41,963 bases of DNA, taken from positions 13,217 to 55,179 of the forward strand of contig BCIH01000001.1 of the NCBI GenBank assembly GCA_002897115.2, written 5' to 3'. The number at the start of each line of letters is the position of its first letter. Within the stretch, counting starts at the first letter, position 1. Of this stretch, positions 15,521 through 34,399 are shown piece after piece. The notes beneath the pieces are model-generated. The model did no database searches and had not been told where the DNA came from. It saw nothing but the letters and a program-made list of their open reading frames with translations. Made by a program: the position numbers and the translations under genes. Source of the stretch: Prototheca cutis. Its lineage: Eukaryota > Chlorophyta > Trebouxiophyceae > Chlorellales > Chlorellaceae.

Positions 15521-16508
15521 GGCGGTGGGTCAAAGCCGGCAAGTGATCCTGGCACGCACGTCCCGCACAGCGAACGGGATGCTGAGCAATCCTCCAAACT
15601 CGGCACCTGCCAAGCTTGATTAATTATAAGCAGGTGCGAGGGGGCCCTTTTCTCCCGGGGGCATCAGCCTGGACCAAACCTGCCTGTCCTTAACGCGTTT
15701 TCCCTTAACCACGGAAGGCGCCGGTCTGAGCGTGGGTGGCACATTCTTAACAAATGGTCTTAGGGGCTTTCCTACGCCCACCAACCTCGCCCGCTGCACG
15801 ATAATTTTTATCCCAAAGTACTGACGCAGTCTGCGGAGGGTACCCCTCGGAAGGAGGTGGGTGTGCCTGCACGCAGTCAGTCCTCGTCCAAAGCACCCGC
15901 GGAGCGCCGTACCACGGATCGAGCCCTTTGAACAGCGTGGATAGGCCTTTGCAACGCCCGTTCCTTTCAGAACTATGTATATTAGAAACATTTAGGAGAT
16001 CAGGAATGGGAAAGAGCACCTGGTATTCACGATTGAAGTGGTTTCAAGAGCACCCCTAGAGACCCTTGAGCAGGACTGCGGGAAGGAAGGTGGCTGACAG
16101 CAGCCTGCCATTTGCCCTGTTTGGGGGAGCCCTCGGTACAACCCCGACCATCTGGGATATTCCCCGTGGTTTCACTCTGCATGATTATTGCATTGGTGTA
16201 TTGACAATCCAAAGCAGAACACATTTGGTCAGGGAGTTGTAGACAGTTCAGCCTGCCCGTGAACTTGCGCTGCCAGGAGCGTGGAGAGAGTAAGCGGCAC
16301 CCTGGAGATTTTGCCCGGATTGTTGCACTCTTCTTGGGATTGACATCCAGGCAAGGCTTGTGCATCCTCGTCGACCTGGTGCTGGTATTGCTGTGGGATC
16401 GCCGGAAATAGCGATACTATCGCTTCTGGCGAGCCACCAACGCAGAGCAGACTATGGGTTAGAGTTCAGATGCCATTGCCTTGAAAGTCGGCAGAACTGC
16501 ATGCATGC
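15521..16508. other. Intergenic stretch, ALIX 5' side to Fanzor remnant
   Basis: About 990 bp without a gene I can support. It should contain the ALIX promoter. GCACCTGC at about 15603 and GCAGGTGC at about 15630 form a small inverted repeat around an AT-rich core. A 123-codon minus-strand frame at 15991-15620 has no recognised motif and is not called. The upstream part of the Fanzor remnant may be decayed into this region. Confidence 0.4.
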
Positions 16509-17114
16509 TTGCCATGGTACGACAGCCCCCCGTGTGGGTCCAGGCCAAGCTATCAGCGATGGACGCTGTTAGCCAGATGGCCGTGGCATGCATGTGTGCA
16601 GGACGACAAGGAAAGCACCGTCGGCCGGTGGCCCCAGGTGACGTCGCGGTCGCTGCTGCGCCGCCTCCCTTATGTGATGGCGGGGCTTGTGCGGGTGCAG
16701 GGTGAGCACACACATGCACACGCGTGCACAGCCATGCACGGCCGGTTTCCAGGGGCTGTGGGTCACGCCTACGCCAAGTGCGCCACACCGCAGGTTTGCT
16801 CGGCGTGCAGTAAACCCCTGCGCCTGGGCGACTGCCCCACCGCCGCGCAGAAGCACTTTGTCCGGCAGTGTCAGAACGAGGCCTGCGGCGTCGTGCACAA
16901 CCGCGACAAGAATGCTGCGCAGAACATGTGCTGTGTGGCACTGGGCCTGATCTTCAACGGCGTCCGGCCAGAGCCTTTTGACAAGCAGCTCCCCTCCTGG
17001 CCCGTGCCTGAGTTCAGCCTGAATATTCCCCACCAACTTGTCCAGCTACTGATTTCTGCTGGTCTCAAAGGAGGCTTTCGCTTCCTCCCTCCATGCTTGA
17101 ACAGGCATCAATGA
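16509..17114 (+). pseudogene. Fanzor/TnpB-like C-terminal remnant (RuvC-II to RuvC-III)
   Basis: The reading frame ends with the tell-tale C-terminal half of a Fanzor: SLLRRLPYVMAGLVRV leading into RuvC-II, the zinc-finger pairs CSAC and CQNEAC, and the RuvC-III block VVHNRDKNAAQNM carrying the catalytic Asp. A 51-bp in-frame intron (16702-16752, GT...AG) may separate the first block from the finger. Where the family has Asp/Glu-Glu before an aromatic-x-Thr-Ser stretch, this copy reads VGHAYAKCATPQVC, so the RuvC-II Glu appears lost. No RuvC-I or N-terminal domain was found upstream. It therefore looks like a decayed or severely truncated copy of the family seen at 1-2110, on the opposite strand. 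Degeneration is inferred. Confidence 0.75.
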
Positions 17115-23705: not shown

Positions 23706-23922
23706 CGGAATCCCCTGGCGCGAACAGCCTGCGGCCTAGATTCTCAACAATGCATTCCGGTGACAGAACTGGCTCCTGGACTTTTGACAACTGCATTCAT
23801 TTCCAATGACAGGAATTGCAGTCGAGAGCTCGGGGGTTGCGGTTCCCGCTCATAAGGTGCAAAATATGAGCGACTGGCACGTGAAATCGGCCCCTCGATG
23901 AGGGGATATGCAATGGCATGTC
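23706..23922. other. Region upstream of PTH2 and of the permuted tRNA
   Basis: Contains the presumptive PTH2 promoter and the leader of the tRNA precursor. CCCCTC-GAT-GAGGGG at 23891-23905 is a perfect 6-bp hairpin 17 bp upstream of the first tRNA base. Confidence 0.5.
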
Positions 23923-24020
23923 ATCGGCAGGTCATTGGTTCAAACCCGATACGGCCCTGACAAGGGGTGGGTCGTTAGCTCAGTGGTAGAGCAGCCGACT
24001 GCAGTTTGCCTTTTGCCATT
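23912..24020 (+). other. Leader/trailer complementary blocks of the permuted tRNA precursor
   Basis: Leader AATGGCA (23912-23918) is the exact reverse complement of trailer TGCCATT (24014-24020). A nearer TGCC at 24007-24010 also matches leader GGCA at 23915-23918. These flank the 37/38 junction and could build the helix of a bulge-helix-bulge substrate for tRNA splicing endonuclease. Pairing is inferred, not folded by software. Confidence 0.6.
23923..24004 (+). tRNA. Circularly permuted tRNA-Cys (anticodon GCA)
   Basis: The 3' half lies first: 23923-23958, comprising A38, stem TCGGC, variable AGGTC, T arm ATTGG-TTCAAAC-CCGAT, acceptor ACGGCCC and discriminator T73. Ten intervening bases (23959-23968) follow. 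Then comes the 5' half, 23969-24004: acceptor GGGTCGT, TA, D arm GCTC-AGTGGTA-GAGC, A, stem GCCGA and loop CTGCAG. Joined as 5' half plus 3' half this gives a 72-nt cloverleaf with 7, 4, 5 and 5 paired stems (two G-U pairs only) and loop CTGCAGA carrying anticodon GCA. U73 is the cysteine identity base. The split is at 37/38. T runs follow at 24011 and 24031, fitting Pol III termination. No 5' half precedes and no 3' half follows, so this is not two ordinary tRNAs. Confidence 0.92.
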
Positions 24021-31807: not shown

Positions 31808-34399
31808 ATGCGCTCGGCAATCCGTTCTTTGCGTGACCTCAGTCGCCTGCGGAACGCGAGCAGGTGGGTTGAGGGAGGGAGGCCTGTGGGCTGCGTGTCC
31901 TCGTTTCAGGCCGGCCTGGTTTGGTTAGGGGGGTTGTCATGGCCGAAGCGGCGGCGCGGCCTTTGGGCCGTGATCGGACTTATTTTTCCTTGGCACGTAC
32001 ATGGGCCAAAAATCTGCTTCTTTCTGTGTTGTAGCTCTTGTTGTGATGTTCATGACTGCACCTTGCACTACCTCACCTGACCACCCATGCGCCAAGAATA
32101 ATCATCATTGCATAATCGATCACCCGTTGCACCCCCAAAAACTACGCGCAGGTTTGCCGGTGGCCGTGCGTCGCTGAGCTCTTTGACGGGCGGCGCAACG
32201 GACACGGTGTACTGCACGGACGCGTCGAACCAGCGCGGCACGTCCCCCATCCTGCTGGGCCTGGTGGAGTACTTCCAGCGCCAGACGCCGCATGTCGGTT
32301 TCTTCCAGCCGATCGGCGCTGCCCCGCTCACCGACTATGCCGCGTGGCCCGGCGCGCCCAAGCACGCCGCGCTGATGAAGGAGGCCATGGGCCTGAAGGA
32401 GGACATTGGCGCCATGTACGGCGTGACCGAGGCGGAGGCCAAGAAGCTGGTGACCCAGGGCCGCTTTGATGAGCTGCTGGACCGCGTGTTCATCAAGTTC
32501 CAGGAGGTCAAGCGCCGGAACGACGTCGTCGTCCTGGAGGGCGCGACGGTGCGTGGCCTGACCGACGCCGAGTTCCAGGCGCGGATCGCCGCCGAGCTTG
32601 ACACCCCCGTGCTCATGGTCGTCGACGTCAACCGTGACAACCCCGGCACGCCGGCCGAGGTCGCCGACCGCGTGCTGCGGCACCGTAACGAGATGGAGGC
32701 CGCACGCGCCAGCATCCTCGCGGCCGTGCTGAACAAGGTTCCGTTGGACGTATTTGACAACATGGTCTCGGGCGTGGGCGAGGTGCTGAAGGAGGCCGGG
32801 CTCCCGCTCGCCGGCGCGATTCCGTTCAACCGTGTCATCGGCACCGCGCGCATCAACGAATTCGCCGCGGCCCTGGGTGCGCGGCGCGTGTACGGCCGGT
32901 CGGAGCTGGTGGACTCTGACGTGACGGGCATCATGGTCGCGCCCCAGCGGCCCTCAGACTTCCTGGAGAAGCTGTCCAGCATCCGCGCTCGCCGCGAGGC
33001 CGAGGGTCAGGAGTTTTTCCGCCCGCTGGTGCTGACCTCTAAGGACCGCCACGACCTGCTCATGTCGCTCGCGCTCGCGTCCCTGTCTGGCACGGGCCCG
33101 CAGCTGGGCGGGCTGATCCTCACCGACGCCGACCTCAACGCCATCCCCCCCGCGACGCACGCTGTGCTGTCCAAGCTCTCCGACGACATCCTGCCCGTGC
33201 TGGAGGTCCCCTTGGGCACGTTTGAGGTCACGCGGCGCATGGTGGGCGTCAACCCCGGCATCCTGCCCAACTCGCAGCGCAAGGTCCGCGAGGCCAAGCA
33301 CCTGTTTGCCAAGCACATCGACGCCAGCGTCGTGGCCAAGGGCATGGCCGCGCCCAAGGAGCCCAAGCTCACGCCCAAGCGCTTCCTGCACCAGATTGAC
33401 GAGATTTGCCGTGCCAGCCCGCAGCGGGTTGTGTTGCCGGAGAGTTACGACCCGCGCGTGCTGTCTGCCGCGGCCGAGGTCGCGGCCAAGGGCCTCGCAC
33501 GGGTGACGCTTCTGGGTGCTCCCGAGGAGGTCGCCGCAGCGGCAACCAAGTACAATGTGGACGTCTCTGGGTGCGACGTCGTGGACTTCCGGAACTCGCC
33601 CAAGCTGCCCGAGTACGCGGCGTGGCTGGTCGAAGCGCGCAAGGCCAAGGGCCTGACCACCGAGCAGGCACTCGACCAGTTGCAGGACCTCAACATGTAC
33701 GCCACGGTCATGGTGGCCGTCGGTGACGCCGACGGCATGGTCTCTGGCGCGACGTGCACGACGGCCAACACCATTCGCCCCGCGCTCCAGGTGCTCAAGA
33801 CCCCCGACCGCAAGCTGGTCAGCTCGGTCTTCTTCATGTGCCTGCCCGACCGCGTCCTGGTCTACGGCGACTGCGCAGTCAACGTCGAGCCCACGCCCGC
33901 GGAGCTGGCGCAGATTGCCACCGTGTCGGCCGACACCGCTGCTGGTTTCGGAATCACGCCCCGCGTCGCCATGCTGTCCTACTCTACCCTGGGCTCCGGC
34001 TCCGGTCCCCAGGTTGACCTGGTCAAGGAGGCCGTGGACCTTGCTCGCACCTCCCGCCCGGACCTGTTCATCGAGGGCCCCATCCAGTACGACGCGGCTG
34101 TCGACCCGGCCGTGGCCGCGACCAAGATCAAGACGCACAGCGAGGTCGCGGGCAAGGCCACCGTCTGCATCTTCCCAGACCTCAACACGGGCAACAACAC
34201 GTACAAGGCCGTGCAGCAGTCGACGGGCGCCATCGCCATTGGCCCGCTCATGCAGGGCCTCGCGCGGCCGGTCAACGACCTGTCTCGCGGCTGCACCGTC
34301 GCCGACATCGTCAACACCGTCGCATGCACCGCCGTCCAAGCCGCCGCCCTCAAGGCCAGCGGTGCGGGTGCGGAGGCCGGTGCAGCCACCGCCGCATGA
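31808..34399 (+). CDS. PTA: Phosphate acetyltransferase (long, DRTGG-type)
   Basis: Interconverts acetyl-CoA plus phosphate and acetyl phosphate plus CoA. Exons 31808-31863 and 32152-34399 join in phase to 767 aa, the length of long bacterial/algal enzymes. The first about 30 residues (MRSAIRSLRDLSRLRNASRF) are Arg/Ser-rich without acidic residues apart from one Asp, resembling a mitochondrial or plastid presequence. Domains: N-terminal P-loop-derived region (about 40-250, VVVLEGATVRGLTD, VLMVVDVNRDNPGTP), DRTGG region (about 260-400), then the catalytic PTA_PTB domain (about 430-745) with VVLPESYDPRVLSAA, GDADGMVSGATCTTANTIRP, VAMLSYSTLGSGSGP, FPDLNTGNNTYKAVQQ and AIGPLMQGL. Complete. A TGTAA signal lies at 34735-34739. 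Confidence 0.96.

Follow-up and report, generated by a model that had tools for sequence, protein, structure and literature searches.

A circularly permuted tRNA-Cys(GCA) locus among at least 27 permuted tRNA genes of Prototheca cutis

Described permuted tRNA genes and the tRNA-Cys(GCA) locus

A 2014 review lists 34 permuted tRNA genes over all organisms, with no more than 11 in a genome (PMC3978253). The closest counterparts of the locus studied here are the tRNA-Cys(GCA) genes of the prasinophytes Ostreococcus lucimarinus, O. tauri and Micromonas pusilla, which are permuted at the 37/38 junction (type II), contain no intron and have spacers of 26, 38 and 12 bp, respectively (Maruyama 2010, via PMC3978253). 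According to the same review, these three genomes contain 4, 6 and 6 permuted genes. In Cyanidioschyzon merolae, 11 of 43 tRNA genes are permuted with four junction types; the 3’ half comes first, followed by a short spacer, the 5’ half and a downstream T run, and the circular intermediate has been demonstrated in this species (Soma 2007, via PMC3978253). For Auxenochlorella UTEX 250-A, a close relative of the present organism, a 2025 report describes an incomplete tRNAscan-SE set and the subsequent identification of permuted genes, while the accessible text gives neither their number nor their isotypes (PMC12636532; preprint PMC12633428). The first-pass annotation of the DNA analyzed here, which knew of no permuted tRNA in a core chlorophyte of this type, is superseded in this respect.

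We analyzed a 41,963-nt stretch of the Prototheca cutis genome (contig BCIH01000001.1, positions 13,217 to 55,179), hereafter the window. Protein identity places the host in the Auxenochlorella-Helicosporidium-Prototheca lineage, whereas the prasinophytes belong to a different green algal class. Direct reading of window positions 23923-24004 on the forward strand reveals the 3’ half of a tRNA-Cys(GCA), a 10-nt spacer and the 5’ half, followed by a T run. The 3’ half (23923..23958) begins with A38 at 23923 and continues through the 3’ strand of the anticodon stem (23924-23928), the variable loop (23929-23933), the T arm containing the B box (23934-23950) and the 3’ strand of the acceptor stem (23951-23957) to the discriminator U73 at 23958. 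The intervening sequence between N73 and G1 (23959..23968) leads into the 5’ half (23969..24004), which consists of the 5’ strand of the acceptor stem (23969-23975), the D arm containing the A box (23978-23992), the 5’ strand of the anticodon stem (23994-23998) and the CTGCAG part of the anticodon loop (23999-24004) with the anticodon GCA at 24001-24003. All of these elements lie on the forward strand. The arrangement that the first-pass annotation had proposed, with the 3’ half first and 10 bases between the halves, is thus correct to the base.

When the halves are rejoined, they form a 72-nt tRNA with complete pairing in the acceptor stem (7/7, one U-G), D stem (4/4), anticodon stem (5/5) and T stem (5/5, one U-G). 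The fully paired stems, the CTGCAGA anticodon loop, the TTCAAAC T loop and U73, all noted at first inspection, are recovered in this way, the two U-G pairs included. The rejoined sequence folds at minimum energy (-25.1 kcal/mol) into an exact cloverleaf, and ARAGORN identifies it as tRNA-Cys(gca) whether or not CCA is added. U73 is the cysteine identity base. Together with the GCA anticodon, the rejoined tRNA has the canonical U8, G18G19, U33 and T-loop TTC, matching the invariant positions as listed in PMC3978253.

The locus has the order of a permuted gene, in which the 3’ half lies upstream of the 5’ half and the acceptor ends are joined by a short spacer, and not that of a conventional or intron-containing gene, in which the 5’ half is upstream. 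As encoded, without rearrangement, the window yields no gene with ARAGORN and no Rfam match at the gathering score, so these standard tools miss the permuted tRNA-Cys, as had been anticipated. Our scan for tRNAs permuted at 37/38 gives the locus a score of 21 out of 21 pairs. We put the probability that this nuclear locus is a functional tRNA-Cys(GCA) gene of the circularly permuted type II, with its junction at 37/38, at about 0.93. It shares the isoacceptor, the junction and the lack of an intron with the prasinophyte genes, from which it differs in its 10-nt spacer, and with these and the Auxenochlorella genes as precedents (PMC3978253; PMC12636532), the locus adds to a known kind.

The window contains other features besides this locus. 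An open reading frame at 16485-17111 (+) matches the Cas12f1-like TNB domain at 24.9 bits, below the cut-off of 26.3, and is possibly a TnpB/Fanzor-like remnant in an algal nuclear genome. An acetate kinase reading frame (PF00871; 29290-30216, -) and a phosphate acetyltransferase reading frame (~32222-34396, +), the product of which is 71% identical to Auxenochlorella and Prototheca wickerhamii proteins, lie within ~2 kb of each other on opposite strands, together a pair for acetate fermentation in the nucleus of a green alga.

Predicted leader-trailer pairing, transcription signals and proposed processing

The sequences flanking the two halves are predicted to pair with each other. In a constrained fold, the end of the leader (23910..23922, +) pairs with the trailer (24005..24014, +) and with the anticodon: GGCA at 23915-23918 pairs with TGCC at 24007-24010, positions 23910-23913 pair with 24013-24016, and leader positions 23919-23921 form a 3-bp helix, including one G-U, with the anticodon at 24001-24003. 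The predicted order is therefore the outer GGCA/TGCC helix, a 3-nt bulge (G37-U-U) that holds the 5’ cut, the anticodon-leader helix and the anticodon stem, and this fold may represent a bulge-helix-bulge-like splice structure of a relaxed rather than strict kind. The free fold of the precursor (23905-24020) was not informative (z = -1.15).

The same comparison was extended to all 27 permuted genes that we found in the genome. None of the 27 trailers pairs better with the tRNA-Cys leader than its own. Over the whole set, constrained folds of leader, anticodon stem and trailer give own leader-trailer pairs a mean energy gain of -5.8 kcal/mol compared with -4.9 kcal/mol for swapped pairs (p = 0.0045, with related copies counted separately). 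The pairing is uneven: at most one other trailer is better in 8 of the 27 genes and at least 14 are better in another 8, with Trp near the bottom. The two Gln genes have differing leaders and trailers, and both pair strongly (-11.3 and -11.0).

The trailer of the tRNA-Cys locus ends with TTTT (24011-24014), which resembles an RNA polymerase III terminator, and further T runs extend to ~24050. In all 27 permuted genes, a run of four or more T residues starts no more than 20 nt downstream of the 5’ half, whereas this is so for 4.6% of background positions. Inside the genes, no T4 occurs in any of the 27. In the tRNA-Cys locus, the TTTT starts at +7 and there is none in the spacer, a sequence signal that points to a single transcription unit. 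This bears on the idea of a split tRNA, in which the halves would come from neighboring transcripts and be combined in trans, as is known from archaea (PMC3978253). Since a single 82-nt unit holds both halves, complete and complementary to each other, with a T run after the unit and none between the halves, we regard a split tRNA as highly improbable, and the permuted gene as the preferred reading.

The upstream signals are less clear. AT content in 5-nt bins is 39-61% against a background of 39% for the 14 of 27 genes with 75 nt upstream, which is only mildly raised, and G+C is ~61% in the long loci examined. TATA-like words occur upstream of some permuted genes with no clear shared element, and a CAA word found upstream of 12 of 24 genes, compared with 25% of background 20-mers, is only suggestive. 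Upstream of tRNA-Cys we found no clear TATA-like element, whereas an upstream TATA-like promoter is a feature of C. merolae, and TFIIIC is not expected to bind the A and B boxes in the order found in permuted genes (PMC3978253). The inverted boxes and the lack of a clear TATA-like element count against the reading of the locus as a functional tRNA-Cys gene.

In the genome, the tRNA-splicing-endonuclease family PF01974 has two matches over the cut-off (56.9 and 43.7 bits); among 14 control genomes, only the 4 archaea match. The Tau95 family (PF09734) has a match above the cut-off and no match in any of the 14 control genomes, but this match is short (31.1 bits over 30 positions). The match to the B-block TFIIIC family (PF04182; 25 bits) is weak because the family also matches in 8 of the 14 prokaryote controls and passes the cut-off in 4. 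Homologues of TFC1 and TFC3 are reported as not identified in C. merolae (PMC3978253), so this lineage, with its Tau95 match, would combine permuted genes with TFIIIC if the match is confirmed.

The pathway demonstrated in red and green algae leads from the permuted precursor through a circle and removal of the spacer to CCA addition (PMC3978253). From the biochemistry of Cyanidioschyzon and green algae, we infer the processing of the tRNA-Cys precursor as follows. RNA polymerase III would transcribe the leader, 3’ half, spacer, 5’ half and trailer as a single RNA, in which the splicing endonuclease would cut after G37 and before A38 within the leader-trailer structure. A ligase would then join 37 to 38 to form a circle, from which tRNase Z and RNase P (the enzymes suggested by PMC3978253) would excise the 10-nt spacer, and the tRNA would finally receive CCA and be charged with cysteine.

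Permuted and conventional tRNA genes in the genome

The locus turned out to be one of at least 27 permuted genes in the genome, which is beyond what could be seen from the window. The scan covered 140 overlapping loci (297,488 letters) with a cut-off score of 19 out of 21; its short regions (138-221 nt) may truncate genes whose spacers are long. In this partial survey we found 27 distinct permuted genes with 21 anticodons on 12 contigs, and the finding that all 27 are permuted at 37/38 reflects the restriction of the scan to this junction. They comprise Ala (AGC in three copies, CGC and TGC), Cys (GCA), Glu (CTC in two copies), Gly (TCC and CCC), Ile (AAT), Asn (GTT in two copies), Arg (TCT), Thr (AGT in two copies, CGT and TGT), Trp (CCA), Leu (AAG), Pro (TGG), Gln (CTG in two copies), Ser (CGA, TGA and GCT) and Val (TAC). 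Ser(GCT) scored 19 and the other 26 scored 20 or 21, with Trp at 20. Their spacers range from 9 to 80 nt, with a median of 13. Once rejoined with CCA, ARAGORN gives the expected isotype for all 27.

Could such arrangements arise by chance or by misassembly? In 400 first-order Markov random windows (16.8 Mb, both strands), the scan gave no match at 21, two at 20 and 20 at 19, a rate at which ~0.4 matches would be expected in 297,488 letters compared with the 27 found. Reversed copies of all 140 loci gave three matches, none above 18, and one mononucleotide shuffle of all 140 loci gave one match, at 19. A chance origin of the tRNA-Cys arrangement is very unlikely. Runs of N in the assembly (for example, in locus L101) indicate that local errors exist, but the same order is found at 27 loci on 12 contigs, and thus it is not the product of one assembly error. 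We therefore consider chance juxtaposition of unrelated tRNA-like stretches or misassembly the least probable of the explanations weighed, and return to permuted genes as the reading for these loci.

A covariance model for which the Cys gene in its permuted order was the only input recovered 14 of the 27 genes at E up to 0.1 and missed 13; it also gave two rows that are not permuted genes (locus L009, 1814-1881, E 0.018; locus L140, E 0.26). ARAGORN at a relaxed score produced 577 calls, which were mostly spurious and were discarded, and its Arg(TCG) call in locus L051, by eye unlike a tRNA, was excluded from the counts.

Conventional genes were counted with a genome-wide Rfam tRNA search, in which 63 of 246 candidates were scored, so that the 17 genes obtained are a lower bound. 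Ten have no reported intron, namely Lys (CTT, two), Arg (ACG, two, and CCT), Phe (GAA), Leu (CAG, three) and Met (CAT), the last of which we take to be initiator-like from its T loop. Another seven contain anticodon-loop introns of 30 to 48 nt: Asp (GTC, three), Pro (AGG, two, and CGG) and Leu (CAA). These intron-containing genes are disrupted at the same 37/38 position as the permuted genes, presumably for the same endonuclease, but their halves are in the normal order. No anticodon is common to the 27 permuted and the 17 conventional genes. Eleven amino acids (Ala, Cys, Glu, Gly, Ile, Asn, Thr, Trp, Gln, Ser and Val) have no conventional tRNA among the 17 matches, and this partial survey recovered neither form for His, Tyr, elongator Met and several isoacceptors.

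Six D-arm patterns, which are independent of the order of the halves, matched 81 sites (23, 22, 3, 16, 14 and 3). Sixty-eight were read or were known tRNAs, and the 13 excluded were weak (three mismatches, or two in two cases); tRNA genes account for 29 of the 81 sites (17 permuted and 12 conventional). This sample is not fully neutral because at least one pattern was modelled on a permuted Gln gene. A B-box pattern gave 237 matches compared with 231 in the control, which indicates that most are chance matches; 76 were read among the 100 matches listed. From these counts, permuted genes apparently predominate over conventional ones, and it is this rather than the Cys locus itself that is unusual. 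For comparison, 27 permuted genes in a scan limited to 37/38 stand beside 17 conventional genes here, whereas the permuted genes of C. merolae are the minority of its set.

The tRNA-Cys locus itself matches the genome (19,886,974 bases, 23 contigs) only once, at itself (E 0.001), and a conventional tRNA-Cys, the presence of which the first-pass annotation had asked about, was found neither among the 17 conventional matches, a lower bound, nor in the D-arm pattern search. These results bear on the view that the locus is a non-functional remnant of a tandem tRNA-Cys duplication, reduced by decay to its inner halves, and that a conventional gene is active elsewhere. Among the proposals for how permuted genes originate is a duplication with later loss of the outer halves (PMC3978253), and since 63 of 246 Rfam candidates were scored, a conventional tRNA-Cys may have been overlooked. 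Against a remnant, the stems contain no mismatch, the identity base is right, the T run is in place, and the same pattern occurs in 26 other genes, the duplicate copies of which are conserved. In addition, a search up to 400 nt from the genes that have long flanks, 14 of the 27, found no remnant of the lost outer halves (the best ungapped matches were 15-20 of 35-44); the best matches for tRNA-Cys, 19/36 and 15/36, are no better than those of the other 13 genes and hence give no trace of a duplication. We consider a remnant very improbable, if somewhat less so than a split tRNA, and a functional permuted gene remains our reading of the locus.

The relatives P. wickerhamii and A. protothecoides have reported tRNA counts of 64 and 71, which are said to cover all tRNAs except Sec (PMC7941945), and these counts, which may include organelle genes, appear to conflict with a shortage of conventional genes in the lineage. 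Two Prototheca genome papers (PMC8847788 and PMC11302234) leave tRNAs unmentioned.

Copies, descent and significance of the permuted genes

The permuted genes present in several copies (Ala AGC, three; Asn, Thr AGT, Glu and Gln, two each) have mature identities of 71/72 to 73/73. Their spacers are more variable: they differ between the copies of Asn, Thr and Gln and in one of the three Ala copies, while the other two Ala copies have a common spacer and the Glu copies agree at 7 of 9 spacer positions. Permuted Ala(TGC) and Ala(CGC) (loci L110 and L118) differ at 2 of 72 positions, with spacers of 16 and 46 nt, an instance of anticodon switching among permuted genes. The 80-nt spacer of permuted Ser(TGA) (locus L107) exceeds the range of the 2014 review, 1-74 bp (PMC3978253). 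Some permuted genes lie close together: Gln(CTG) and Thr(AGT) are on opposite strands ~150 nt apart (locus L094, 1420-1765), and Thr(CGT) and Asn(GTT) are on one strand ~1.3 kb apart (locus L051, 1489-2920).

The permuted Pro(TGG) gene (locus L104) and the intron-containing Pro(CGG) gene (locus L017, 1501-1620, minus strand) have the same mature sequence at 71 of 72 positions, the sole difference being anticodon base 34. This identity links the permuted and the intron-containing architectures by descent. The link is probably recent, judged from the sequences, and its direction could be either way. The next closest pair of a conventional and a permuted gene, Leu(CAG) and Leu(AAG), is 78% identical.

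A permuted set as large as this in one genome is not described in the literature that we searched (permuted tRNAs; green algae, Prototheca, Trebouxiophyceae and Chlorella), and the Auxenochlorella supplement may show one. On permuted tRNAs, the literature search for Prototheca led to the Auxenochlorella work only, and that for Trebouxiophyceae to this work and a paper on nucleomorphs. The prasinophyte genomes carry 4 to 6 permuted genes as reviewed (PMC3978253), compared with at least 27 here. We think it likely that permuted genes are the rule among the nuclear tRNA genes of this organism, that they outnumber the conventional ones and are the sole source of tRNAs for at least the 11 amino acids listed above as having no conventional match, and that there was recent passage between the intron-containing and the permuted form, as in Pro(CGG) and Pro(TGG), which have a common body. 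Most translation would then run through circular intermediates, although TFIIIC is apparently present.

The annotation of tRNAs by standard finders can accordingly be badly incomplete in this lineage. Permuted tRNA genes have so far been curiosities, and at least 27 of them in one genome make several questions testable, including how polymerase III starts with inverted A and B boxes, whether the circular intermediate has a role of its own and how permuted genes originate. For the last of these, Pro(TGG) and Pro(CGG) are a natural pair, resembling a before-and-after comparison. From the genes found here, the cell very likely depends on the cutting and re-joining of permuted tRNAs for protein synthesis.
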